From contig UBXV01000022.1 of assembly GCA_900469625.1 (NCBI GenBank), positions 1 through 64,000 on the forward strand: a stretch of DNA of 64,000 nt. Reading direction: 5' to 3'. Shown in pieces: positions 53,265 to 63,362 of the stretch (positions are counted from its first letter, which is position 1; every line of letters starts with the position of its first letter). This DNA is from Hyphomicrobiales bacterium. Lineage in GTDB: Bacteria > Pseudomonadota > Alphaproteobacteria > Rhizobiales > Rhizobiaceae. The position numbers and the translations under genes are program-made. The notes beneath the pieces were generated by a model. The model was given only the letters and a program-made list of their open reading frames with translations, had not been told where the DNA came from and ran no database searches.

Positions 53265-53687
53265 ATGTCGAGCCAGCCTTTGACCACCTATGTCGGCGTT
53301 GCCCATCCGTGGATGTGCGACACGATGGGGCACATGAACGTGCGCCATTATGCGGCAATGTTCGACGATGCCAGCTTCCAGTTGCTCGGCCATATTGCTG
53401 GCCTGGAAACCGAAGGCGAGAAGGCCAGGGGCTGGGCCGACGTACGCTCGGAAACGGAATACAAGCACGAAACCAAGGCCGGGGCGCTGATCACCATCCG
53501 ATCGCGGGTCGTCAAGCTCGGCCGTTCCTCCGTGACCTTCGAGCAGATCATGTCCGGAACGCTCGATGACGTCGTTCATGCGGTCAACCGGACGGTCACC
53601 GTCCGCTTCGACCTCGACGCGCGCGCAGCGACGGCCCTTGAACCTGCGGCCCGTTCCCGTGCTGAGGCCCTGCTGCCGGTGGAATGA
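53265..53687 (+). CDS. 4-hydroxybenzoyl-CoA thioesterase-like hotdog protein
   Basis: 140-residue single hotdog-fold acyl-CoA thioesterase. The active-site segment is VAHPWMCDTMGHMNVRHYAA then MFDDAS, in which D, H and N of the D-x-M-G-H-M-N motif match the 4HBT/YbgC group. The rest (RSRVVKLGRSSVTFEQIMSG) follows the fold. Start 53265 (MSSQPLTTYVG) is preceded by GAGG; longer in-frame extensions to 53115 have poor coding character. Stands alone and converges on the LysR gene. Substrate unknown. Confidence 0.85.
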   Translation: MSSQPLTTYVGVAHPWMCDTMGHMNVRHYAAMFDDASFQLLGHIAGLETEGEKARGWADVRSETEYKHETKAGALITIRSRVVKLGRSSVTFEQIMSGTLDDVVHAVNRTVTVRFDLDARAATALEPAARSRAEALLPVE

Positions 53688-53707: not shown

Positions 53708-54667
53708 TCAGTCGGCGTAGATGCGCTCTTCCGCCGGTGTTTCGGCGATCAATGTCTGCAATCCGGCAATCAGCGCCTTTTCGGCCCGGTTCAGCGCCTT
53801 GTCGGGATTTGTCAGCATGAAGATGTCGATGGCGGGCGGCGCCTCGTAAGGGGGTAGCCGCCAGAGCGCGCCATCGGCAACATCGCGTCGCGCAACGTGC
53901 AGCGGCAGCGGGCCGACACCAAGGCCGGCCATGATCATGCGGCGCACCTCTTCGAGACTGGAGGAGACGCCGACGACGTTGGCATTGAGCTTGGCCTCGC
54001 TGCGCAGCAGCGCCACCGGGCGAAGCGCGTCGGCGATATGGTCGGTGTGGAACGAGACGGAGGTCTCGCCCTTGAGGTCGGCGAGCTTCAGCCCTTGCTT
54101 GCCGAACAGTCGATGGTGCGGACCGCAGAAGAAGCCGAAGAACTCGCGAAACACCAGCAGATAATCGAGCGCTGGATCGCGAACGCTGACGAGGCAGAGG
54201 CCGAAGGATGCGCGCTTCTCCCGCACCTGGCGGGTGACGTCGCCGCTTGCAGCCACCGAGATGTTCAGCGTCGCGCGCGGATAGTCGCGATGGAATTGCA
54301 TCAGGGCCCGGTCGAAGAGCGGCGATACCACGTGGCTGGCAACGGCGATGGTCACGTGGCCGGTCACGTCGTCGCTGACGCCGCGCACCAGTTGCGGCAG
54401 CTGCGATATGGTTCCGAACACCTCGACGGCCTGTTCGTAGAGCAACTGGCCGACTTCGGTGAGGTCGAAGCGGGTCGCGTCACGTTCGACCAGACGCCGC
54501 CCGACCCTGTCCTCCAGCCGCTTCAAGGCATTGCTGACGCTCGGCTGCTTCAGGTTCAGCCGCTCGGCGGCGCGTGTGATGCTTTTCACCTCCGCGATCA
54601 CCACAAAGGTGCGCAAGAGGTTCCAGTCAAGCTCCCAGACAAGCCGTTCTGACCGCGGTGTCGCCAT
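53708..54667 (-). CDS. LysR-family regulator of the divergent amide/polyamine operon
   Basis: 319-residue LysR regulator. HTH at residues 14-75 (DWNLLRTFVVIAEVKSITRA, AERLNLKQPSVSNALKRLED). Effector domain from about 100 (GHVTIAVASHVVSPLFDRAL) to the end. It is divergent from the binding-protein gene at 54809 across 141 bases, the classic layout for a LysR protein controlling the adjacent operon and itself. The effector is probably the operon substrate or an intermediate. Confidence 0.92.
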   Translation of the reverse strand: MATPRSERLVWELDWNLLRTFVVIAEVKSITRAAERLNLKQPSVSNALKRLEDRVGRRLVERDATRFDLTEVGQLLYEQAVEVFGTISQLPQLVRGVSDDVTGHVTIAVASHVVSPLFDRALMQFHRDYPRATLNISVAASGDVTRQVREKRASFGLCLVSVRDPALDYLLVFREFFGFFCGPHHRLFGKQGLKLADLKGETSVSFHTDHIADALRPVALLRSEAKLNANVVGVSSSLEEVRRMIMAGLGVGPLPLHVARRDVADGALWRLPPYEAPPAIDIFMLTNPDKALNRAEKALIAGLQTLIAETPAEERIYAD

Positions 54668-54808
54668 TCTTCAAATCTATGCCTTCTATTCCCATTATCT
54701 ATTTGCGCAATGCTGAAGCAAAGGCAATCATGAAATTCGGAAGGCGCCTCGATGCCCGTCCCAAGCGCACGAGAAGGCGCATTTGCCCAGAGGATCAAGG
54801 AACATTTC

Positions 54809-55591
54809 ATGAAGACCATTTTCTCCGGCCTGCTGGCCGCTACACTGACCATTGCCGCAACTTTCTCCGCCGCATCAGTGCGTGCAGACGATCTGGAAGC
54901 CGTGAAGTCTGCCGGCGAGCTGAAGATCGCGATGAGCGGCCAGTACCCGCCCTTCAACTTCGTCAACGAACAGAACGAGGTCGTCGGTTTCGACGCGTCG
55001 ATCGGCAAGGCGATTGCCGAGCGCGTCGGCGTCAAGGGCACACTGGTGACGACGGCCTGGGATGGCATCATCGCCGGTCTGCTTGCCAACAAGTACGACA
55101 CGGTCGTCGGCTCCATGACCATCACGCCAGAGCGCGAGAAGGTCGTCGATTTCGTCGGTCCTTACTATCACGCCGGCCGCGCCGTCTTCGTCTCCGAGGA
55201 CTCGGCCGTTGACAAGCTCGAAGACCTCAAGGGCAAGACGCTGGGTGTGACGCTCGGCGAAACCCATGAAAAGTGGGCGCGCGAACAGGGCGGCTGGGAT
55301 GTGCGCACCTACAAGGGCCTGCCCGAGCTGATGATGGAACTGAAGAGCGGCCGCGTCGATGCCATCGTCGTCGACAACATCCCCGTCATGGTCGCCGTCA
55401 AGGAAACCGGCGAGAAGGTTCGCCGCCTGGAAACGCCTGATATCGAAGGCGGCAGCGTCGCCATCGGCATTGCCATCCGCAAGAACAATCCGGAGCTGAA
55501 GGCAGCGATGCAGAAGGCGCTCGAGGACATGCTGGCGGACGGCTCCTACGAGAAGATCGCCATGGAATGGGTCGGCAGCGACATTCGCTGA
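54809..55591 (+). CDS. polar amino acid-type ABC binding protein of the amide/polyamine operon
   Basis: Periplasmic family 3 solute-binding protein of 260 residues. Signal peptide MKTIFSGLLAATLTIAATFS to VRA. The mature part has GELKIAMSGQYPPFNFVNEQ, VVGFDASIGKAIAERVG, the ligand-carboxylate region VVGSMTITPEREKVVDFVGP and SGRVDAIVVDNIPV. The S-x-T-I-T-x-E-R motif, with arginine, implies an amino-acid-like ligand with a free carboxylate. Start 54809 follows AAGGA by 7 bases. First gene of a nine-gene operon; a stable hairpin follows it. Confidence 0.92.
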   Translation: MKTIFSGLLAATLTIAATFSAASVRADDLEAVKSAGELKIAMSGQYPPFNFVNEQNEVVGFDASIGKAIAERVGVKGTLVTTAWDGIIAGLLANKYDTVVGSMTITPEREKVVDFVGPYYHAGRAVFVSEDSAVDKLEDLKGKTLGVTLGETHEKWAREQGGWDVRTYKGLPELMMELKSGRVDAIVVDNIPVMVAVKETGEKVRRLETPDIEGGSVAIGIAIRKNNPELKAAMQKALEDMLADGSYEKIAMEWVGSDIR

Positions 55592-55606
55592 TCGCTTGCT
55601 TCTATC

Positions 55607-55642
55607 GTCTCCGGCCGTCCGCTGACGGTGGCGGCCGGAGAC
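55607..55642 (+). terminator. intercistronic hairpin after the binding-protein gene
   Basis: GTCTCCGGCCG (55607-55617) and CGGCCGGAGAC (55632-55642) form a perfect 11-bp stem, 15 bases after the stop of the binding-protein gene and 28 bases before the permease. No T-run. The same placement is seen in the ugp and peptide-type operons of this window. Confidence 0.6.
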
Positions 55643-55670
55643 CGTCGCATCCTCCTCCCGGAGTTTTCTC

Positions 55671-56318
55671 ATGGACTTTTCGCTGGTGCAGCGCGTCTTC
55701 CCGTTCTTCGTGGAAGCGGCGTGGATCACGATCGAGATTTCGGCACTTTCGCTTGCCCTCGGGCTTGTCGTCGCCTTTCTCGTTGCGGCGGCAAAGATGT
55801 CGCGCTCCTTGCCCTTGCGCATCCTCGGTTCTGCCTATGTCAGCCTGTTTCGCGGCACGCCATGCCTGATCCAGCTGTTCGTTCTCTATTTCGGTGGTCC
55901 GCAGATCGGCATCAATCTCGAGCCGTTTGCCGCCGGCGTGATCGGGCTTGGTCTCAACATCGGCGCCTATATGGCCGAAGCCATCCGCGGCGCCATCCAG
56001 TCGGTCGACCGCGGCCAGACCGAGGCTGCCCGCTCCATCGGCTTCAGCCGGTTCCAGACGATGCGCAAGGTGGTGTTGCCGCAGGCCGCACGTCTGATGA
56101 TCCGGCCGCTCGGCGTCAATGCCGTCGCCCTGGTCAAGGGGTCGGCACTGGTCTCTACGATTTCGGTGGTCGAGCTCACCTACACGGCCCAACGTTACAT
56201 CGGCTCGACCTACAAGCCGTTCGAGATCTTCGGTGTCGCCGCCGTGCTCTACATGCTCATCGTCTATGTCGTCGCGCGGGTCGTCGATCTCATCGACCGA
56301 CGCTACGCCATAGCCTGA
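55671..56318 (+). CDS. polar amino acid-type ABC permease 1
   Basis: 215-residue HisM/GlnP-family permease with about five membrane segments. FFVEAAWITIEISALSLALG is the standard family start, SLFRGTPCLIQLFVLYFG the conserved R-G-T-P-x-x-x-Q motif, and AARSIGFSRFQTMRKVVLPQ with A the EAA loop. Works with the next permease as a heterodimer. Ribosome site CGGAG before ATG 55671. Confidence 0.93.
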   Translation: MDFSLVQRVFPFFVEAAWITIEISALSLALGLVVAFLVAAAKMSRSLPLRILGSAYVSLFRGTPCLIQLFVLYFGGPQIGINLEPFAAGVIGLGLNIGAYMAEAIRGAIQSVDRGQTEAARSIGFSRFQTMRKVVLPQAARLMIRPLGVNAVALVKGSALVSTISVVELTYTAQRYIGSTYKPFEIFGVAAVLYMLIVYVVARVVDLIDRRYAIA

Positions 56319-56331
56319 GAGGAAACCCCGC

Positions 56332-56991
56332 ATGCAAGGCCTCGATTTCAGCGTCGTTCCGCCCTATGCCGATATCCTGTGGATGGGTGTGTGGTGGACG
56401 GTCGTCCTCACCGTCTCGGCAGCCGCCATCAGCTTCATCTTCGGCGTGATGTTCGCGCTCGTCGTTCTCTATGCGCCGAAGGCCGTCGCTTTGCCGGTCA
56501 GGGCGTTCATGTGGCTGTTCATGGGCACGCCGCTGCTGTTGCAGCTGTTCCTGATCTATTACGGGCTGGGGCAGCTCGGCTTCAAGATCCCGGCGCTGAT
56601 TGCCGGCATCATCGGCCTCGGGCTGCACTTCGCGGTTTATAACGCCGACATTCTGCGCGCCGGCATCGTCGCGGTGGATGTCGGCCAGACCGAAGGCGCG
56701 CGTAGTCTCGGCTTCGGTCGCTTCCAGACGCTGCGCTATTTCGTCGTGCCGCAGGCCGTGCGCAACACCATCCCGGCCATGGGCAACAACCTGATCGTGC
56801 TGTTGAAGGAATCCTCACTGGTGTCGATCATCGGCATTGCCGAACTCGTTCATGCGGCACAGCTCGCGATCAGCGAGACCTTCCGACCGTTCGAGTTCTA
56901 CATCACGGTCGCCGCCCTCTATTACATCCTAAACCTCGTGCTCGAAGCGGGTCTGCGCCGGGTCGAACAGAACGTGGAGGTATCACGATGA
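56332..56991 (+). CDS. polar amino acid-type ABC permease 2
   Basis: 219-residue partner of the previous permease. [40 protein letters not shown] (here M-G-T-P instead of R-G-T-P) and the EAA loop [20 protein letters not shown] are the family marks. 13 bases after the previous gene; it overlaps the ATPase gene by four bases (ATGA). Confidence 0.93.
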
Positions 56992-57752
56992 ACGCCGAGC
57001 GACCCATGGTCGAAGTGAAGGGGGCCCGCAAGGCCTATGGCGAGCTTCAAGTCCTGAAGGGCATCGACCTTTCGGTCGACCGCGGCCAGATCGTTGCCAT
57101 CATCGGCCCGAGCGGATCGGGCAAGAGCACGCTCCTTCGCTCGATCAATCACCTCGAAACCTTGAATGGTGGCGAGATCTGGCTTGATGGCGTCCAGGTC
57201 AACCAGGATCTGCGCGGCCAGGCCTTCGAGCGCCACATCAATGCGGTGCGCCAGCAGATGGGCATGGTGTTCCAGCATTTCAATCTGTTCCCGCATCTGA
57301 CCGTGCTCGAAAACGTCACCATGGGGCCCATCATCCTGAAGGGCATGGCAAAGGCGGCGGCGCGCGCGCTGGCGGTGGAACTTCTGTCGAAGGTCGGCCT
57401 TGCGGAGAAGGTCGATGCCTATCCCTCCAGGCTTTCCGGCGGCCAGAAGCAACGTGTCGCCATCGCGCGAGCGCTGGCCATGCAGCCGAAGGTGATGCTC
57501 TTCGACGAGGCAACTTCGGCGCTCGATCCCGAGCTGGTCGACGAGGTCAACGCGGTCATGAAGCAGCTTGCCGCCGAACACATGACGATGCTGATCGTCA
57601 CCCACGAAATGCGCTTTGCCGGTGAAGTCGCCGATCGGGTGCTGTTCATGGATGGCGGCGTTGTCGTCGAACAGGGGCCTCCGAGCGAAATCTTCCGCGA
57701 GCCGAAGCAGGAGCGCACGCGGACATTCCTCAAGAAATACCTGGCGGCGTGA
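56988..57752 (+). CDS. polar amino acid-type ABC ATPase
   Basis: 254-residue GlnQ/HisP-class ATPase. Walker [16 protein letters not shown] (about residues 43-57), Q-loop [11 protein letters not shown], signature [16 protein letters not shown], Walker [17 protein letters not shown] and H-loop IVTHEM are intact. Completes the importer formed with the two permeases and the binding protein. It overlaps the preceding gene, and its stop overlaps the dimethylformamidase-like gene (TGATG), tying import to catabolism. Confidence 0.95.
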
Positions 57753-59398
57753 TGGATGCGATGAAGACGAGCAGCGACCAGTTTCCCGATTTCGGGCTGA
57801 CGCCCGATGAGCGCCGCGAAGCGGTGCTCGGCCACTACTACGAATATCCTGGAATGGACGGCGAGCGCGGCGAGATCTGGTGCTATACCGACGCCTATGC
57901 CTATCCGCCGGGCGCAACCGTGCGGCTTCAGGTAAGCTCGACGGCCCAACAGTTCGCGCTGGAGATCGTGCGCGACGGCGCGATCGAAACGACCGTCATG
58001 ACACGTCAGGGGATCGCGGCCCGCTGGCAGGATACGCCGGATCAGTGTTCCGTCGTTGGCTGCGGTTGGGAGACGACGTTCGAGTTCGCGGTCGATGCGA
58101 GCTGGCCGTCCGGTGCCTACCGCATTACGTTGACGGCGGCCGGCCGCAATGGCGCGCCCATTCGCTGCCATCACCTCTTCATCGTCCGTCCCGAGGCCGG
58201 CCGCAAGCCGGGCCGCGTGCTGCAGGTGGCGGCGACCGGGTCCTGGACCTCCTACAACACCTGGGGCGGTTCGAACCACTACCAGGGCATCACCGGTCCC
58301 AACCGCGACCAGTATGCGACGACCGTCAGCATCGAGCGGCCGTTCTGCCGCGGCTTTGTACAACTGCCGGCCGATGCGCCGCGGGTTCCGCTGGAAATCT
58401 ACTCGCCGATGGCGGTCGCCCCGCGCTACCCGCACATGGAATGGGCCTATGCCAACGGCTATTCCAAGAAATACGCCTCTTCAGGCTGGGCGAGCTATGA
58501 CAGCCATTTTTTCCGCTGGGCCGAGCGCGAAGGCTACGCCGTCGATCTCGCCAGCCAGCACGAGCTGCATTTCAACCCGGAAATCCTCGACGGCTATGAT
58601 TGCGTCGCCTTCGTGGGCCACGACGAATACTGGACCTGGGAGATGCGCGACGCGGTCGACGGTTACGTCGAGCGCGGCGGGCACGCGGCCCGCTTTGCCG
58701 GCAACTTCATGTGGCAGACGCGCCTGGAAGACGGCGGCAAGCGGCAGGTGTGCTACAAGTATCGCGCGCGTGCAGAAGACCCGGCTTTTCGGTCCGACGA
58801 TCCGACCCGCATGACCGGCTCCTGGGAGGATAGGACAATCGGTCGTCCCGGTTCGTCCACCTTCGGGCTCATTGCCACACGCGGGCTCTATGTCGGCTGG
58901 GGTGGTTGCGCTCCGCGCGGCGCCCGCGGCTTTCCAGTCTATCGCCCCGAGCATTGGGCTTTTGCTGGGACCGGTATCTACTATGGCGATATCCTCGGCG
59001 CCGAGGGCCATGCCTTCGGCTACGAGGTCGACGGCCTCGACTACATCATCCGTGGCGGCCTGCCGGAACCGACGGAGGACAGCGGCGCACCGGACGGACT
59101 GGAAATCCTGGCGCTCGGCATGTCGTCGCTGAAGGAAGAAAGCGCCGACATTGCCGCCGATGATCAGTTCCTCTCCGACGCGGACGCCAAGTTCGTGGCG
59201 GAAACGCTGATCGGCGATGCCGGCGAAGCCTCGGTCGACAAGGTCAAGCGCGGTTGCGGCATGATCGTCAATTTCCCGCGCGGCAAGGGCGAGGTCTTCC
59301 ACGCCGGCAGCTGCGAATGGGTGGCAGCCCTCAAGCGCGGCGATACGATGGTCGAACGCGTCACCGCCAATGTTCTCAACCGTTACCTCAAACGCTGA
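57752..59398 (+). CDS. N,N-dimethylformamidase large-subunit-like amidohydrolase
   Basis: 548-residue protein resembling the large (beta) subunit of N,N-dimethylformamidase, which uses a mononuclear iron held by two tyrosines and a glutamate to cleave amides. Family-like segments are GEIWCYTDAYAYPPGATVRL (N-terminal beta-sandwich), VLQVAATGSWTSYNTWGGSN, HYQGITGPNRDQYATTVSIE, CVAFVGHDEYWTWEMRDAVD, ERGGHAARFAGNFMWQTRLE and GKGEVFHAGSCEW near the end. True DMFase large subunits are longer (about 760) and need a small subunit; no small-subunit gene is present. The start is ATG 57752, overlapping the ATPase stop; GTG 57749 is possible. Substrate probably an amide or formamide imported by the linked transporter. 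Confidence 0.83.
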   Translation: MDAMKTSSDQFPDFGLTPDERREAVLGHYYEYPGMDGERGEIWCYTDAYAYPPGATVRLQVSSTAQQFALEIVRDGAIETTVMTRQGIAARWQDTPDQCSVVGCGWETTFEFAVDASWPSGAYRITLTAAGRNGAPIRCHHLFIVRPEAGRKPGRVLQVAATGSWTSYNTWGGSNHYQGITGPNRDQYATTVSIERPFCRGFVQLPADAPRVPLEIYSPMAVAPRYPHMEWAYANGYSKKYASSGWASYDSHFFRWAEREGYAVDLASQHELHFNPEILDGYDCVAFVGHDEYWTWEMRDAVDGYVERGGHAARFAGNFMWQTRLEDGGKRQVCYKYRARAEDPAFRSDDPTRMTGSWEDRTIGRPGSSTFGLIATRGLYVGWGGCAPRGARGFPVYRPEHWAFAGTGIYYGDILGAEGHAFGYEVDGLDYIIRGGLPEPTEDSGAPDGLEILALGMSSLKEESADIAADDQFLSDADAKFVAETLIGDAGEASVDKVKRGCGMIVNFPRGKGEVFHAGSCEWVAALKRGDTMVERVTANVLNRYLKR

Positions 59399-59410
59399 CA
59401 GAGACCGGAC

Positions 59411-60778
59411 ATGCTCAAGACGACAGCTTCCAACGAACGGCCCGCCTCACACCTGTTCTACCAGTCGCGCCTGCGCCGGCCGCTGGTCGACCGGGCCGAG
59501 GGCATCTATCTCTTCGACCAGGATGGCCGACGGGTGATCGACGGCTCCAGCGGCGCGATGGTGGTCAATATCGGCCATGGCAATCGCAACGTGATCGAAG
59601 CCATGAAGCGGCAGATGGACCGCGTGACCTTCGCCTATCGCCTTCACTTTGAAAACGAACCGGCCGAAGAATTGGCGCGCCGCGCCGCCGAAAAGCTGCC
59701 CGAGGGCATGGACAAGATCTTCTTCGTCTCCGGCGGGTCAGAGGCGGTCGAGTCCTGCCTGAAGCTCGCCCGGCAATGGGCCGTCGCGACCGGTCAGAAG
59801 GATCGCTGGAAGGTGATCTCGCGCTTTCCGTCCTACCACGGCGGCACGCTCGGCGCGCTGGCTGTCACCGGTTATGCGGCGCTCTCCGATCCGTTCTCGC
59901 CGATGATGCGCGAAATGCCGAAGGTGCCGGCACCGACCGCCTATCTCGACCGTGACAACCTGACGATGGAGCAGCGCGGCATCAAATATGCCGATATGCT
60001 GGAAGACAGGATCCAGTCCGAAGGCCCGGAAAGTGTGCTCGCCTTCATCATGGAGCCGATCGGCGGCGCGTCGACCGGGGCGCTGGTGGCACCCGACAGC
60101 TACTACCGGCGCATCCGCGAGATCTGCGACAAGTATGGCATCCTGCTCATCCATGACGAGGTCATGAGCGGGGCTGGTCGGACCGGGAAATTCCTTGGTG
60201 GCGATCATTGGGGCTGCAAGCCGGACCTGATCGCGCTGTCGAAGGGCTTTGCTTCCGGCTATTGCCCGCTCGGTGCCATGGCGGCGCCCTCAAGGCTGGT
60301 GCAGCCGGTGCTCGACGCCGGCGGCTTCCAGCATGGCTTCACCTATGCTGGCAATCCGCTTGCCTGCGCCGCTGGCCTGGCGGTGCTCGACGAAATCGAC
60401 CGGCTCGGGCTGATCGACAATGCGGCCGTCATGGGCGACGCGCTCAAGGCCGAACTGGTCACCCTTTCCGAACGCTTCCCGTTCATCGGCGACGTCAGGG
60501 GCAAGGGGCTGCTGCTTGCCGCCGAGTTCGTCTCGGATCGCGAGACGATGAAGCCCTTGCCGAAGGAGTTGAACGCGCACCAGCGGGTTGTCGATCTCGC
60601 CTATGAGCGTGGGCTGATCATCTATTCCAGGCGGACCCGTGGGGGTGTCGAGGGCGATCATTTCCTGGTCTGCCCGCCGATGATCATCACAAGGGAGCAG
60701 ATCGGCGAAATCGTCGCAATCCTCGGCGACGTGCTCGAACAGCTCGCGGCCGAACTCAACCTTCCCGTCAACCGCTGA
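59411..60778 (+). CDS. class III (omega/beta-amino acid) aminotransferase
   Basis: 455-residue PLP-dependent fold-type I aminotransferase. It has YLFDQDGRRVIDGSSGAMVV, NIGHGNRN, the cofactor-binding FFVSGGSEAVESCLKLARQW, FPSYHGGTLGALAVTG, the carboxylate-sensing LIHDEVMSGAGRTGKF and the PLP lysine in LIALSKGFASGYCPLGAM (about residue 280). Class III enzymes act on amino groups away from the alpha carbon (omega-, beta-amino acids, diamines). Next to a BKACE gene, a beta-amino acid substrate giving a beta-keto acid is the attractive reading. 12 bases after the previous gene. Confidence 0.93.
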   Translation: MLKTTASNERPASHLFYQSRLRRPLVDRAEGIYLFDQDGRRVIDGSSGAMVVNIGHGNRNVIEAMKRQMDRVTFAYRLHFENEPAEELARRAAEKLPEGMDKIFFVSGGSEAVESCLKLARQWAVATGQKDRWKVISRFPSYHGGTLGALAVTGYAALSDPFSPMMREMPKVPAPTAYLDRDNLTMEQRGIKYADMLEDRIQSEGPESVLAFIMEPIGGASTGALVAPDSYYRRIREICDKYGILLIHDEVMSGAGRTGKFLGGDHWGCKPDLIALSKGFASGYCPLGAMAAPSRLVQPVLDAGGFQHGFTYAGNPLACAAGLAVLDEIDRLGLIDNAAVMGDALKAELVTLSERFPFIGDVRGKGLLLAAEFVSDRETMKPLPKELNAHQRVVDLAYERGLIIYSRRTRGGVEGDHFLVCPPMIITREQIGEIVAILGDVLEQLAAELNLPVNR

Positions 60779-60788
60779 GATCGACACC

Positions 60789-61736
60789 ATGACGAAAACC
60801 AAGACGTCGCGCAGGAAGGTCATCATCACCTGCGCGGTGACGGGCTCGGTGCATACGCCGACCATGTCGCCCCATCTGCCGATCACACCGGACCAGATCG
60901 CCGCCGAGGCAATTGCCGCTGCCGAGGCCGGCGCCTCGATCCTGCACCTGCATGCGAGAAACCCGGTGGACGGTCGTCCCTCGGCAGACCCTTCGCTGTT
61001 CATGCAGTTTCTGCCGCGCATCAAGCAGTCGACCGACGCCGTCATCAACATTTCGACCGGCGGCTCGTCGCTGATGGCGCTCGAAGATCGCCTGGCGGCC
61101 TCATTGCGGGCCGAGCCCGAGATGTGCTCGCTTAACATGGGATCGATGAATTTCGCCCTGTTTCCGGCACTGGACAAGCCCGCCGAATGGAAGCACGCCT
61201 GGGAGCCGGAGCTGCTGGAGGCAACACGCTCGTCGATCTTCAAGAACACCTTTGCCGACATGGAATTCATCCTGACGCGGCTTGGGCAGGGATGCGGGAC
61301 ACGCTTCGAGTTCGAATGCTACGATGTCGGCCATCTCTATTCTCTGGCGCATTTCCGTGACCGTGGGCTGGTTTCCGGCCATCTGTTCATCCAGTTTGTC
61401 TTCGGCATTCTGGGAGGCATCGGCGCCGATCCCGAGAACCTGACGCACATGAAGCGGATCGCCGACAAGCTCTTCGGCGACGACTATTCATTCTCGGTGC
61501 TGGCGGCCGGCCGACACCAGATGCCGATGATCACGATGGCGGCGGCAATGGGCGGCAACGTTCGCGTCGGGCTCGAAGACAGCCTCTACAACGGCCGCGG
61601 CCAGCTTGCGACGAGCAATGCTGAGCAGGTGCAGCGTATTCGCACCGTGCTCGACGCCTTGTCGCTGGAGGTTGCCACCCCTAAGGAAGCACGTGATCTT
61701 CTCGGCCTCAAGGGCGGTGATCAGGTCGCATTCTGA
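60789..61736 (+). CDS. beta-keto acid cleavage enzyme (BKACE, DUF849)
   Basis: 315-residue TIM-barrel zinc enzyme of the DUF849/Kce family, which condenses a beta-keto acid with acetyl-CoA to give acetoacetate plus a new CoA thioester. KVIITCAVTGSVHTPTMSPH and LPITP match the N-terminal signature. H53 and H55 in GASILHLHARNPVDGRPSAD are the likely zinc ligands, with E263 in VRVGLEDSLY as the third. AAAMGGNVRVGLED is a family hallmark. Family members differ widely in substrate, and here it is unknown. Ten bases after the aminotransferase, so the transamination product may be its substrate. Confidence 0.93.
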   Translation: MTKTKTSRRKVIITCAVTGSVHTPTMSPHLPITPDQIAAEAIAAAEAGASILHLHARNPVDGRPSADPSLFMQFLPRIKQSTDAVINISTGGSSLMALEDRLAASLRAEPEMCSLNMGSMNFALFPALDKPAEWKHAWEPELLEATRSSIFKNTFADMEFILTRLGQGCGTRFEFECYDVGHLYSLAHFRDRGLVSGHLFIQFVFGILGGIGADPENLTHMKRIADKLFGDDYSFSVLAAGRHQMPMITMAAAMGGNVRVGLEDSLYNGRGQLATSNAEQVQRIRTVLDALSLEVATPKEARDLLGLKGGDQVAF

Positions 61737-61796
61737 TGCCGTAGGCCCCGGGCGAGATCGCCCGCGGCTTCGGTCGCTGCAGTAAAGGGGAAGACA

Positions 61797-62300
61797 TTGA
61801 CAACGACGCACGGTTCGACCGCGGTCATCCGCATTCGCTCAGGTGAAATCGGCGATGCCGAGACGATCCATGGTGCAATCCTGGCCATGGGGCGCGGGCT
61901 CGACATGGTAGGCAAGGTGACTTGCACCGCAGACGACTATCGCCGGTTCGGCTTCGGCCCGGGCGCGGCCTTCGGCAGTCTGATTGCCGAGGTGGACGGC
62001 GCGTTTGCCGGTCTCTGCCTGTTCTTCCCGATCTTTTCGACCTGGCGTGGGCGGCCCGGAGTCTTTGTGCAGGATCTCTATGTCGAAGATCGCTTTCGCG
62101 GCCTCGGGATCGGCGAGCGCCTGCTGCGCGACGTGGCGGCCTGGTCGAGGGCGCGCGGTGGGGACTATCTGCGTCTGGAAGTCGACGTGGAAAACACGAC
62201 CGCCCAGCGCCTCTACGAGCGGCTCGGTATCACCTGGCAGGTGAAGGACCGCGCCCATGCCGCCTACGGCGATGCCTTCGTGGCACTCGCTGGAAAATGA
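61797..62300 (+). CDS. GNAT N-acetyltransferase, diamine-acetyltransferase-like
   Basis: 167-residue GNAT enzyme. The acetyl-CoA pyrophosphate loop is in VQDLYVEDRFRGLGIGERLL, preceded by LFFPIFSTWRGRPG and followed by YLRLEVDVENTTAQRLYERL. The run F-F-x-x-F-S-T-W-x-G-R...x-D-L-Y-V is close to the spermidine/spermine (SSAT) and thialysine acetyltransferase group, pointing to a primary amine substrate. The start is TTG 61797 with AAAGGGGA about 8 bases upstream. It lies 60 bases after the BKACE gene, the widest gap in the catabolic half of the operon. Confidence 0.87.
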   Translation: MTTTHGSTAVIRIRSGEIGDAETIHGAILAMGRGLDMVGKVTCTADDYRRFGFGPGAAFGSLIAEVDGAFAGLCLFFPIFSTWRGRPGVFVQDLYVEDRFRGLGIGERLLRDVAAWSRARGGDYLRLEVDVENTTAQRLYERLGITWQVKDRAHAAYGDAFVALAGK

Positions 62301-62330
62301 ACGTCCGAAGCCGCAGGAATTGGAGTGACC

Positions 62331-63362
62331 ATGAAAGCCTTCTACGCCCGGGAACAGAAGCGACACGATCCGAAGGCTTTCCTTTCGAGTGGCGCGCCGC
62401 AGCCGAACCCGGAGCAGCCCGAACGGGTCGAGCGGTTGCTTGCCGGCGCTCGCGAAGCCGGTTGCACCATCCTTCGGCCAAGCGATCACGGTCTTGGGCC
62501 GATTGCCGCCGTTCACACCCCAGAATATCTCGATTTCCTCGAACATATCTATGCGCGCTGGCAGCGGATCGCCGAGGCCTCGGATGAAGTGATCCCGAAC
62601 ATCCATCCGCTCGCCCGTGATGGCCGGTACCCGGCGTCTGCCGTGGGCCAGGCCGGATATCACATGGCCGACACGGCGTGCCCGATTTCCGGGGAGACAT
62701 GGGAAAGTGTGCGCTGGAGCGCCTGGAGTGCTGTCGACGCGGCAGACGCAATCCTTGCTGGCGACCGTGCCGCCTATGCGCTGTGCCGGCCGCCTGGCCA
62801 TCATGCCTTTGCCGATGTTGCCGGTGGCTTCTGCTTCCTCAACAATTCCGCTGTTGCAGCACAGCGCTTGCTGTCGAACGCCGCCCGCGTCGTGATTCTC
62901 GACATCGACCTGCACCACGGCAACGGTACGCAGGGCATCTTCTACCGGCGCTCCGACGTGCTGACGGTGTCGATCCATGCAGATCCCGTGCGGTTCTATC
63001 CGTTCTTCTGGGGCCATGCCGACGAGCGCGGCGAGGGGCCGGGCCTTGGCTACAACCTCAACCTGCCACTTGATCGCAAGTCGGGAGATACAGAATTTCT
63101 GGCCGCCCTCGACGTCGCTTTTCGCCGCATCCGTGCCTATGCCCCGGATGCGCTCGTCGTGGCGCTTGGCCTCGACGCCTTCGAGGGCGACCCTTTCGGC
63201 GGGCTGTCCGTGTCGACGCCGGGCTTTGCAAGGATCGGTGCGGCTATCTCCGGCCTCGGCCTGCCGACGGCGATCGTCCAGGAAGGCGGCTATCTCTGCG
63301 ACGCGCTGTCCGACAATCTGACGTCTTTCCTCACAGGTTTCGGCGCGGCTGCCACGATCTAA
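62331..63362 (+). CDS. acetylpolyamine amidohydrolase-like deacetylase (HDAC superfamily)
   Basis: 343-residue zinc deacetylase. The active-site series is complete: HTPEYL, CRPPGHHAFADVAGGFCFLN (charge-relay histidines), VVILDIDLHHGNGTQGIFYR (zinc ligands D and H) and LGLDAFEGDPFGG (third zinc ligand), then VQEGGYLCDAL. Length and the insert HPLARDGRYPASAVGQAGYH then MADTACPIS resemble acetylpolyamine amidohydrolases rather than histone or acetoin deacetylases. Start 62331 follows GGAG; GTG 62325 is an alternative. Last gene of the operon. Removing an acyl group from an imported or GNAT-made N-acyl amine is the likely role. Confidence 0.92.
   Translation: MKAFYAREQKRHDPKAFLSSGAPQPNPEQPERVERLLAGAREAGCTILRPSDHGLGPIAAVHTPEYLDFLEHIYARWQRIAEASDEVIPNIHPLARDGRYPASAVGQAGYHMADTACPISGETWESVRWSAWSAVDAADAILAGDRAAYALCRPPGHHAFADVAGGFCFLNNSAVAAQRLLSNAARVVILDIDLHHGNGTQGIFYRRSDVLTVSIHADPVRFYPFFWGHADERGEGPGLGYNLNLPLDRKSGDTEFLAALDVAFRRIRAYAPDALVVALGLDAFEGDPFGGLSVSTPGFARIGAAISGLGLPTAIVQEGGYLCDALSDNLTSFLTGFGAAATI

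Follow-up and report, generated by a model that had tools for sequence, protein, structure and literature searches.

The DNA analysed here is a 64-kb window of a Hyphomicrobiales genome (assembly GCA_900469625.1, contig UBXV01000022.1, positions 1 to 64,000), in which an operon of nine genes occupies positions 54809 to 63362 of the plus strand, with a LysR-type regulator gene diverging from it. The operon encodes an importer, a protein related to dimethylformamidase (hereafter the amidase-like protein), a class III aminotransferase, a beta-keto acid cleavage enzyme of the BKACE family, a GNAT acetyltransferase and an HDAC-like deacetylase. Our reading, to which we give an even chance, is that it serves the breakdown of a beta-amino acid carrying an additional amine at its end. 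That compound would most likely be beta-lysine (3,6-diaminohexanoate), imported as such or bound in a small amide; beta-lysine is the best single guess at the substrate, about as apt to be right as wrong. The transaminase and beta-keto-acid cleavage core of the proposal is well supported. The protein families, the conserved key residues, the gene order and the replacement of enzymes at the cleavage and deacetylation steps, on which the proposal is built, were observed directly.

In the proposed route, the ABC importer would take the compound up and the amidase-like protein would cleave an amide bond, where one is present. The GNAT acetyltransferase would acetylate the 6-amine, so that the later 3-keto acid could not cyclise, and the aminotransferase would turn the 3-amine into a 3-keto group, giving 6-acetamido-3-oxohexanoate. 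From this compound, BKACE with acetyl-coenzyme A (acetyl-CoA) would yield acetoacetate and 4-acetamidobutyryl-CoA, which a thioesterase and the HDAC-like deacetylase would convert into 4-aminobutyrate (GABA). Every substrate named here is predicted from sequence and gene content, and so are the sequence in which the acetyl group is added and removed, the part played by the amidase-like protein and the co-transcription of the genes.

Exchange of enzymes beside the aminotransferase

The aminotransferase was searched for in three genome samples, drawn from the class (385), the phylum (398) and the order (249). Its relatives form a group at about 62–77% identity, clear of the paralogs near 44%, with a few sequences at 47–58%; the upper group occurs in 20 of the 385 genomes of the class sample (own genome included), and no genome outside the class exceeded 47% identity in the phylum sample. 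Partner genes lying within 9.5 kb of the aminotransferase were scored at 82 loci, taken from genome flanks and from plasmid records (9 of 18 opened). Seventy of these loci lie outside Ensifer (Ensifer/Sinorhizobium being the genus of the window's own genome), and the counts out of 70 given below refer to them; they include near-duplicates (L109/L115, L066/L067) and at least four loci ended by contig ends (L157, L177, L197, L198). Twelve stretches with aminotransferases of 44–57% identity (L084–L095) were inspected and kept out of the 82-locus table; among them, a 25% BKACE-like match adjoins the aminotransferase in two and a 24% amidase-like match is found in one. Also left out were two places at 49–51% in the order sample, two at 47–48% in the phylum sample, and L110 and L111 (about 50%).

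The gene for the cleavage enzyme is a BKACE in 45 of the 70 loci and a two-subunit CoA-transferase in 15, while both together were found in none and neither in 10. In addition, a thiolase accompanies 13 of the 15 CoA-transferase loci, compared to 0 of the 55 others. Two ways of cleaving a beta-keto acid are established, namely BKACE together with acetyl-CoA, or activation by a CoA-transferase followed by a thiolase. The mutual exclusion of these two solutions beside one aminotransferase argues that this enzyme makes a beta-keto acid, which is very probably the case, and that its substrate would consequently be a beta-amino acid; among the sequence data, we consider this exclusion the strongest evidence for such a product. 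The core proposed by a first-pass annotation of this DNA, in which a transaminase forms a beta-keto acid that is then cleaved, is thus strengthened by the swap of BKACE for CoA-transferase and thiolase in sister operons.

The clearest swap pair is provided by two loci that share an importer, the aminotransferase, an amidohydrolase and an alanine racemase: the Parasedimentitalea locus has BKACE and HDAC, and that of Rhodobacteraceae M382 has CoA-transferase A and B, an M20 deacylase and a thiolase. The deacetylase varies as well, being HDAC-like in 43 of the 70 loci and of the M20 type in 20, with both in 3 and at least one type in 60. As for the importers, 25 loci have one of the amino-acid type and 24 one of the polyamine type (PotD/PotA-like), and none has both. 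On a tree of 74 aminotransferases, built by a quick method without eight Ensifer loci, L110 and L111, the minimum number of changes was 3 for the cleavage type, 4 for the deacetylase type (counted without rows having both types or neither) and 16 for the importer type. These counts are a safer guide to the swaps than Fisher p-values, as Fisher's test ignores relatedness.

Of the ten loci with neither cleavage gene, three are ended by contig ends (L177, L197, L198), one is a plasmid record and six lie in searched genomes. All six of these genomes carry a BKACE of 60–71% identity elsewhere, a figure to be read without a comparison of how often extra BKACE copies occur in genomes whose cluster contains BKACE; in G975, this BKACE adjoins a second copy of the aminotransferase (L200). 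Two further observations concern single genomes. In Rhizobium sp. CB3171 a shortened BKACE remnant lies between the aminotransferase and GNAT genes (L108:10354-10755), and G117 retains a 70% identical HDAC at another place, beside an ABC importer.

Gene order and conservation of the operon

The features of the operon and its surroundings are collected in Table 1.

Table 1. Genes and candidate site at the operon (positions in the window).
Feature	Position	Strand	Basis and remarks
4HBT_2-type acyl-CoA thioesterase	53265..53687	+	PF13279; tail to tail with the LysR gene; proposed to free 4-acetamidobutyrate from its CoA ester
LysR-type regulator	53708..54667	-	PF00126/PF03466; conserved partner of the operon
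Candidate regulator site: AT-rich conserved motif with repeated CTAT	54675..54712		Gap alignment
Solute-binding protein, family 3, of polar-amino-acid importer	54809..55591	+	PF00497; R109 and D189 in 37/37 relatives
Importer permease 1	55671..56318	+	PF00528
Importer permease 2	56332..56991	+	PF00528
Importer ATPase	56988..57752	+	PF00005; EhuA model 345.0 bits, cut-off 345.4
Dimethylformamidase-like metal amidase, large-subunit type (putative)	57749..59398	+	PF20254; proposed to open the amide of the imported compound
Class III aminotransferase	59411..60778	+	PF00202; proposed 3-amino to 3-oxo step
BKACE	60789..61736	+	PF05853; NF053538 522.6 bits, cut-off 430
GNAT acetyltransferase, start codon uncertain	61797..62300	+	PF00583; proposed to acetylate the terminal amine
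HDAC-like deacetylase, acetylpolyamine amidohydrolase branch; start possibly 62331	62325..63362	+	PF00850; proposed to turn 4-acetamidobutyrate into GABA

The first-pass annotation had described nine genes on one strand, separated by 79 bases or less and facing a divergent LysR gene, and both this layout and the protein families that it named are confirmed. Specifically, the nine products match, in order, the Pfam families SBP_bac_3, BPD_transp_1 (twice), ABC_tran, DMFA2_C, Aminotran_3, BKACE (PF05853), GNAT and Hist_deacetyl. The largest gap, 79 bases, separates the solute-binding protein gene from the first permease gene, and the two permease genes are 13 bases apart; downstream of the amidase-like gene, the spacings are 12, 10, 60 and 24 bases. 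Stop/start overlaps do occur, as had been noted, although "several" overstated a total of two, each of 4 bases, before the ATPase gene and before the amidase-like gene.

The amidase-like protein was searched for in 61 genomes (the own genome, 15 from its genus, 21 from its family and 24 from its order). A relative of at least 83% identity was found in 13 of them, namely in 12 of the 16 genomes of the genus, own included, and in G031 of another genus. All 13 carriers keep the nine genes and the LysR gene in identical order, and therefore the arrangement is not due to chance. Scanning species genomes with an alignment of aminotransferases yielded 526 candidates, the best 80 of which, here called named loci, belong mostly to Mesorhizobium and in addition to Ensifer, Ochrobactrum/Brucella, Shinella, Phyllobacterium and others. 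BKACE, together with at least 4.5 kb of sequence beyond the aminotransferase, is present in 58 of these 80 loci, which also carry HDAC (57), GNAT (56), the amidase-like gene (53), an amino-acid importer (32) and a thioesterase (27). The aminotransferase, BKACE, GNAT and HDAC genes are contiguous in 50 of the 58, non-contiguous in 6 and incomplete as a set in 2. The remaining 22 named loci comprise 4 with a CoA-transferase, 8 with neither cleavage gene despite enough sequence and 10 that are too short. The expectation that the genes would stay together in other genomes is thus borne out, and the nine-gene operon with its divergent LysR gene is real, conserved and widespread in Rhizobiales. A record titled Bacillus subtilis strain SK6B4 (L250, JAHREI010000001.1) carries an aminotransferase 75% identical to that of the window, in the gene order of Pseudochrobactrum L245; this record is probably mislabelled or contaminated.

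The thioesterase gene on the far side of the LysR gene did not appear in the gene list of the first-pass annotation. Ensifer, Nitratireductor and some Mesorhizobium have a thioesterase gene next to the operon, and it lies directly 3' of the HDAC-like gene, on the same strand, in nine loci: L032 (G031), L161 and L205–L211 (Ochrobactrum, Brucella, Falsochrobactrum). It is probably a further member of the operon's gene set.

The gap between the LysR and solute-binding protein genes measures 141 bases and contains a motif that we propose as a candidate regulator site; of 30 such gaps measured, 10 could be aligned over it, in genera ranging from Ensifer to Tistrella. Consensus promoters and terminators showed no excess, with 2 promoters against 1.9 in shuffled sequences and 8 terminators against 7.3.

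Key residues and the proposed handling of the acetyl group

The aminotransferase residues K278 and D249, taken to be catalytic, are kept in 82 of 82 relatives (two aminotransferases below 60% identity omitted). The best models for this protein are NF005685, at 455 bits, followed by NF005375, at 428.2 bits and below its cut-off of 535. In BKACE, H53, H55 and E263, which we take to be metal ligands, are present in 57 of 57 relatives (L108 and L111 omitted). The protein exceeds the cut-off of NF053538, a model of 3,5-dioxohexanoate type (522.6 against 430 bits), though the reaction in the model's name is putative here. In the related enzyme Kce, Glu14 binds the 5-amino group of the substrate, as stated in a passage of PMC10470551. 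The corresponding BKACE residue is number 21, a place obtained by counting and on the assumption of a six-residue tag on 2y7d, and among the 57 relatives it is either Val (26) or Ile (31). In addition, the window enzyme matches BKACE15 (E 2e-114), which, according to the relevant portion of PMC11961710, acts on neutral C5–C6 keto acids.

The HDAC-like protein finds its best solved match in 3men (338 bits). It resembles the acetylpolyamine amidohydrolases (3men, 6phr, 3q9b) along its full length and in all six residues checked; it differs from them in that its gene sits in an operon with BKACE and a transaminase. These residues, H159, H160, D195, H197, D284 and Y323, occur in 53 of 53 relatives (L114 and L200 omitted) and presumably represent the His-His pair, the metal ligands and the Tyr of acetylpolyamine amidohydrolase/HDAC catalysis. 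The solved relatives of the GNAT-family protein include acetyltransferases of terminal amines: among the 41 listed, enzymes for thialysine and for diamines rank highest of those with named substrates, and enzymes that acetylate ornithine at N5 or nourseothricin rank lower.

A GNAT gene lies near the aminotransferase in 33 of the 70 loci, and GNAT and an HDAC-like gene occur together in 26. An acetyltransferase and a deacetylase within one catabolic operon would be futile unless the acetyl group protects an intermediate, and hence a second amine is likely to be protected along the route. With a 6-amino-3-keto acid, we infer, the hazard would be closure to a five-membered ring.

The nearest solved relatives of the amidase-like protein are the N-acetyl-(R)-beta-phenylalanine acylases (8i5a/8huy) and dimethylformamidase, at E-values from 7e-14 to 1.3e-7. 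The protein shares with these acylases and with the Paracoccus dimethylformamidase the DMFA2_C domain and counterparts of Y399, H519 and E521, namely Y169, H291 and E293, which are invariant in 14 of 14 sequences and likewise in all 16 of a second set that partly overlaps the first; of the dimethylformamidase iron ligands Y399, Y440 and E521, near which H519 lies, Y440 falls outside the aligned region. In contrast to that enzyme, the window protein has 549 residues instead of about 775, the sequence match is confined mainly to about 220 residues, and a small-subunit gene was not found in the operon, whose largest gap is 79 bases (the search covered the operon and not the rest of the genome). 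As far as a passage of PMC7686228 indicates, dimethylformamidase was inactive when this subunit was missing.

It is plausible, from these similarities, that the amidase-like protein is a metal amidase with the dimethylformamidase fold and acts on an amide bond in what the importer brings in. Its gene occurs in 15 of the 70 loci and is not near the aminotransferase in the other 55, nor in Shinella, and therefore represents a branch leading into the route, outside its core. The first-pass annotation had assigned the opening of amide bonds to both this protein and the HDAC-like one. For the former, the assignment is plausible, given an N-acetyl-(R)-beta-phenylalanine acylase as nearest solved relative; for the latter it is less supported, because the co-occurrence of GNAT and HDAC genes in 26 loci fits acetylation before, and deacetylation after, the cut of the chain.

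In the solute-binding protein, R109 and D189 were conserved in all relatives once one below 50% identity was omitted. The importer clusters of L159, L209, L241 and L245 each show two adjacent solute-binding-protein matches, possibly two ligands or a broken copy.

Known pathways and alternative explanations

A Pseudomonas pathway resembles the proposed route most closely. Barker's group (Bozler 1979, Ohsugi 1981) reportedly found that beta-lysine is converted into N6-acetyl-beta-lysine and then, by transamination, into 6-acetamido-3-oxohexanoate; an acetyl-CoA-dependent cleavage is said to follow, giving acetoacetate and 4-acetamidobutyryl-CoA, from which a deacetylase-thiolesterase releases GABA. 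Each of these activities (acetyltransferase, transaminase, acetyl-CoA-dependent cleavage, and deacetylase with thioesterase, the route ending in GABA) has a candidate gene here, and of its hallmarks an acetyl-CoA-dependent cleavage enzyme, BKACE, and deacetylase and thioesterase genes are found at the operon, with putative substrates. The Pseudomonas route differs in coming from another organism; it is not known to have been described beyond the enzymes, at the level of genes, or to include a dedicated importer or amidase. The earlier statement that no described pathway has this set overlooks this route. The 4-acetamidobutyryl-CoA deacetylase step is not known to have an assigned gene. In searches of open-licence literature, no title or abstract described this gene set or genes for aerobic beta-lysine breakdown, which is a weak negative.

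If the beta-lysine proposal is right, the operon would offer candidate genes, the deacetylase step included, for a pathway known for decades only as enzymes, and would give a definite metabolic step to an acetylpolyamine-type deacetylase and to a dimethylformamidase-like amidase. The route would have been conserved while its cleavage and deacetylation enzymes were swapped several times. Beta-lysine is known mainly from antibiotics, osmolytes and a protein modification; it would have to be common enough as food for many rhizobia to keep a dedicated operon.

At the gene level, the nearest relative is the kam/yod cluster of B. subtilis (kamA-yodPQRST), in which KamA makes beta-lysine. The Bacillus locus has a class III aminotransferase related to NF005375, and its content is resembled by the sister operons L080/L081, which comprise the aminotransferase, GNAT, CoA-transferase A and B and an M20 deacylase; NF005373 is the second- or third-ranked model for the M20 proteins. 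Unlike the Bacillus locus, the window uses BKACE and an HDAC-like protein and has an importer and the amidase-like gene, and an aminomutase gene was not found nearby. At strict limits (E 1e-160 and 1e-80), B. subtilis was the sole match of NF005375 and NF005373 among 14 control genomes. As the proteins studied here lie under the curated cut-offs of both models, they are not assigned to these families. A scan of viral contigs with the CoA-transferase, seeking the Bacillus locus, gave no relative, and a pair of loci on Peribacillus plasmids that carry an M20 deacylase proved to be something else. According to the portion of PMC6522883 concerned, kamA and yodT of B. subtilis are sporulation-controlled, and they are close by locus number; in Bacillus thuringiensis, a passage of PMC4428206 places kamA and six upstream genes in two operons.

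Lysine fermentation with Kce, as outlined in part of PMC3149608, similarly uses a BKACE-family enzyme to cut the beta-keto acid of a lysine isomer into acetoacetate and a CoA ester. There, however, a dehydrogenase makes 3-keto-5-aminohexanoate with a free amine, whereas the operon uses a transaminase and its BKACE has Val or Ile at the place of Glu14. A Kce-type pathway was set aside on account of that place and since neither the dehydrogenase nor the 5,6-aminomutase is among the nine families.

Several observations weigh against the beta-lysine proposal. A lysine 2,3-aminomutase gene was not found in the 170 fetched loci, which would imply an external source of beta-lysine, perhaps in the form of an amide that the amidase-like protein opens; 3 of 20 carrier genomes have a KamA-family gene at or above the cut-off. 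The Arg and Asp of the binding protein presumably hold an alpha-amino acid, as is usual in this family, and would fit a conjugate with an alpha-amino acid better than free beta-lysine. GNAT was undetected in 37 of the 70 loci, which would need an acetylated substrate or a GNAT elsewhere; moreover, the top solved match of the GNAT protein is without a named substrate, and acetyltransferases of aminoglycosides, phosphinothricin and proteins also figure among the 41 listed. In Tistrella-type loci, both GNAT and a deacetylase are missing from the neighbourhood, the best HDAC elsewhere being 46–47% identical (M20 proteins elsewhere were not searched). A thioesterase is found in just 6 of the 70 loci and in fewer than half of the 58 named BKACE loci, and 8 of the named loci with enough sequence lack a BKACE and a CoA-transferase match alike. 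The scheme has no role for a DAO-type FAD oxidoreductase present in 19 of the 70 loci (L075:13259-14359 and 18 others), 16 of which have a polyamine-type importer, and leaves the 24 importers of this type unexplained. Finally, at a loose limit NF005375 matches all 14 control genomes.

The first-pass scheme remains a possible, though doubtful, alternative. An N-acylated or amidated beta-amino acid or polyamine conjugate would be imported and deacylated at the outset by both the amidase-like and the HDAC-like protein, before transaminase and BKACE act, with GNAT as a side activity. It agrees with the cleavage of an N-acetyl beta-amino acid by the nearest solved relative of the amidase-like protein, with the 17 of 70 loci that have HDAC without a detected GNAT, and with a Sinorhizobium terangae plasmid in which a related aminotransferase stands beside an M20 aminoacylase, with BKACE and a thioesterase near. 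However, in 50 of the 58 named BKACE loci GNAT and HDAC are neighbours, which would be futile with deacetylation as the earlier step, and one bond does not need two deacylases. The scheme gave GNAT no step, and its view of what GNAT and the HDAC-like protein do is probably wrong; as a whole, that interpretation is partly supported. The same protection logic applied to a different diamino beta-amino acid (for example beta-ornithine, 3,5-diaminohexanoate, or a relative that is hydroxylated or longer) is in our view rather unlikely. The sequence evidence does indicate a protectable amine on a beta-amino acid and not a chain length, and BKACE15 takes several C5–C6 keto acids; yet the Val or Ile at the 5-ammonium-binding place of Kce argues against a free 5-amine, and protection would be most useful where a five-membered ring can form, as with a 6-amine.

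Catabolism of acetylpolyamines or diamines without a beta-keto acid, in which the aminotransferase and the deacetylase act on N-acetylputrescine or a similar compound and BKACE serves a neighbouring step, would suit the acetylpolyamine amidohydrolase branch of the HDAC-like protein and the PotD/PotA-like importers, but the exclusive swap of BKACE for CoA-transferase and thiolase puts a beta-keto acid in the main line. We consider it very improbable, and its pure form, which leaves BKACE without a role, was set aside. Least credible of all is a pathway of ectoine or acetyl-diaminobutyrate type, suggested by the Ehu-like importer and the handling of acetyl groups. In its favour are the EhuA score, just short of the cut-off (345.0 against 345.4), and an amidohydrolase of Parasedimentitalea that is distantly like DoeB2. 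Against it, all three Ehu models score below their cut-offs, with EhuC at 184.7 against 196.95 and EhuB at 80 against 190.9; ectoine hydrolase is not among the nine families, BKACE would have no role, and this pathway was set aside with the EhuB score far under its cut-off.

A special form of the beta-lysine proposal concerns elongation factor P, on a lysine side chain of which EpmA and EpmB place a beta-lysyl modification. The operon might salvage beta-lysine from the N-epsilon-beta-lysyl-lysine of decaying elongation factor P, by import, isopeptide cleavage by the dimethylformamidase-like enzyme and then the GABA route. Such a role would explain why the binding protein has residues for an alpha-amino acid, why the amidase-like gene is there and why an aminomutase gene was not found, and we nevertheless consider it a long shot. 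The KamA-family gene of the window genome lies in a cluster that reads by eye like efp-epmA-epmB (L281:4632-7492, G000:C43); it probably serves elongation factor P and not this operon.

Three Sinorhizobium plasmids carry related gene groups. In S. medicae (L285:3434-13453), the amidase-like gene, LysR, CoA-transferase, M20, thiolase and GNAT stand with an aminotransferase just 25% identical to that of the window, so that here the transaminase too may have been replaced. On pSymA of S. meliloti (L284:7431-9030), CoA-transferase genes, annotated as five short pieces, lie beside an ArgE/DapE deacylase and look broken. On the S. terangae plasmid mentioned above (L111:7959-13479), the aminotransferase next to the M20 aminoacylase is 48% identical and the thioesterase near it is of the PaaI type, possibly forming a sister module.

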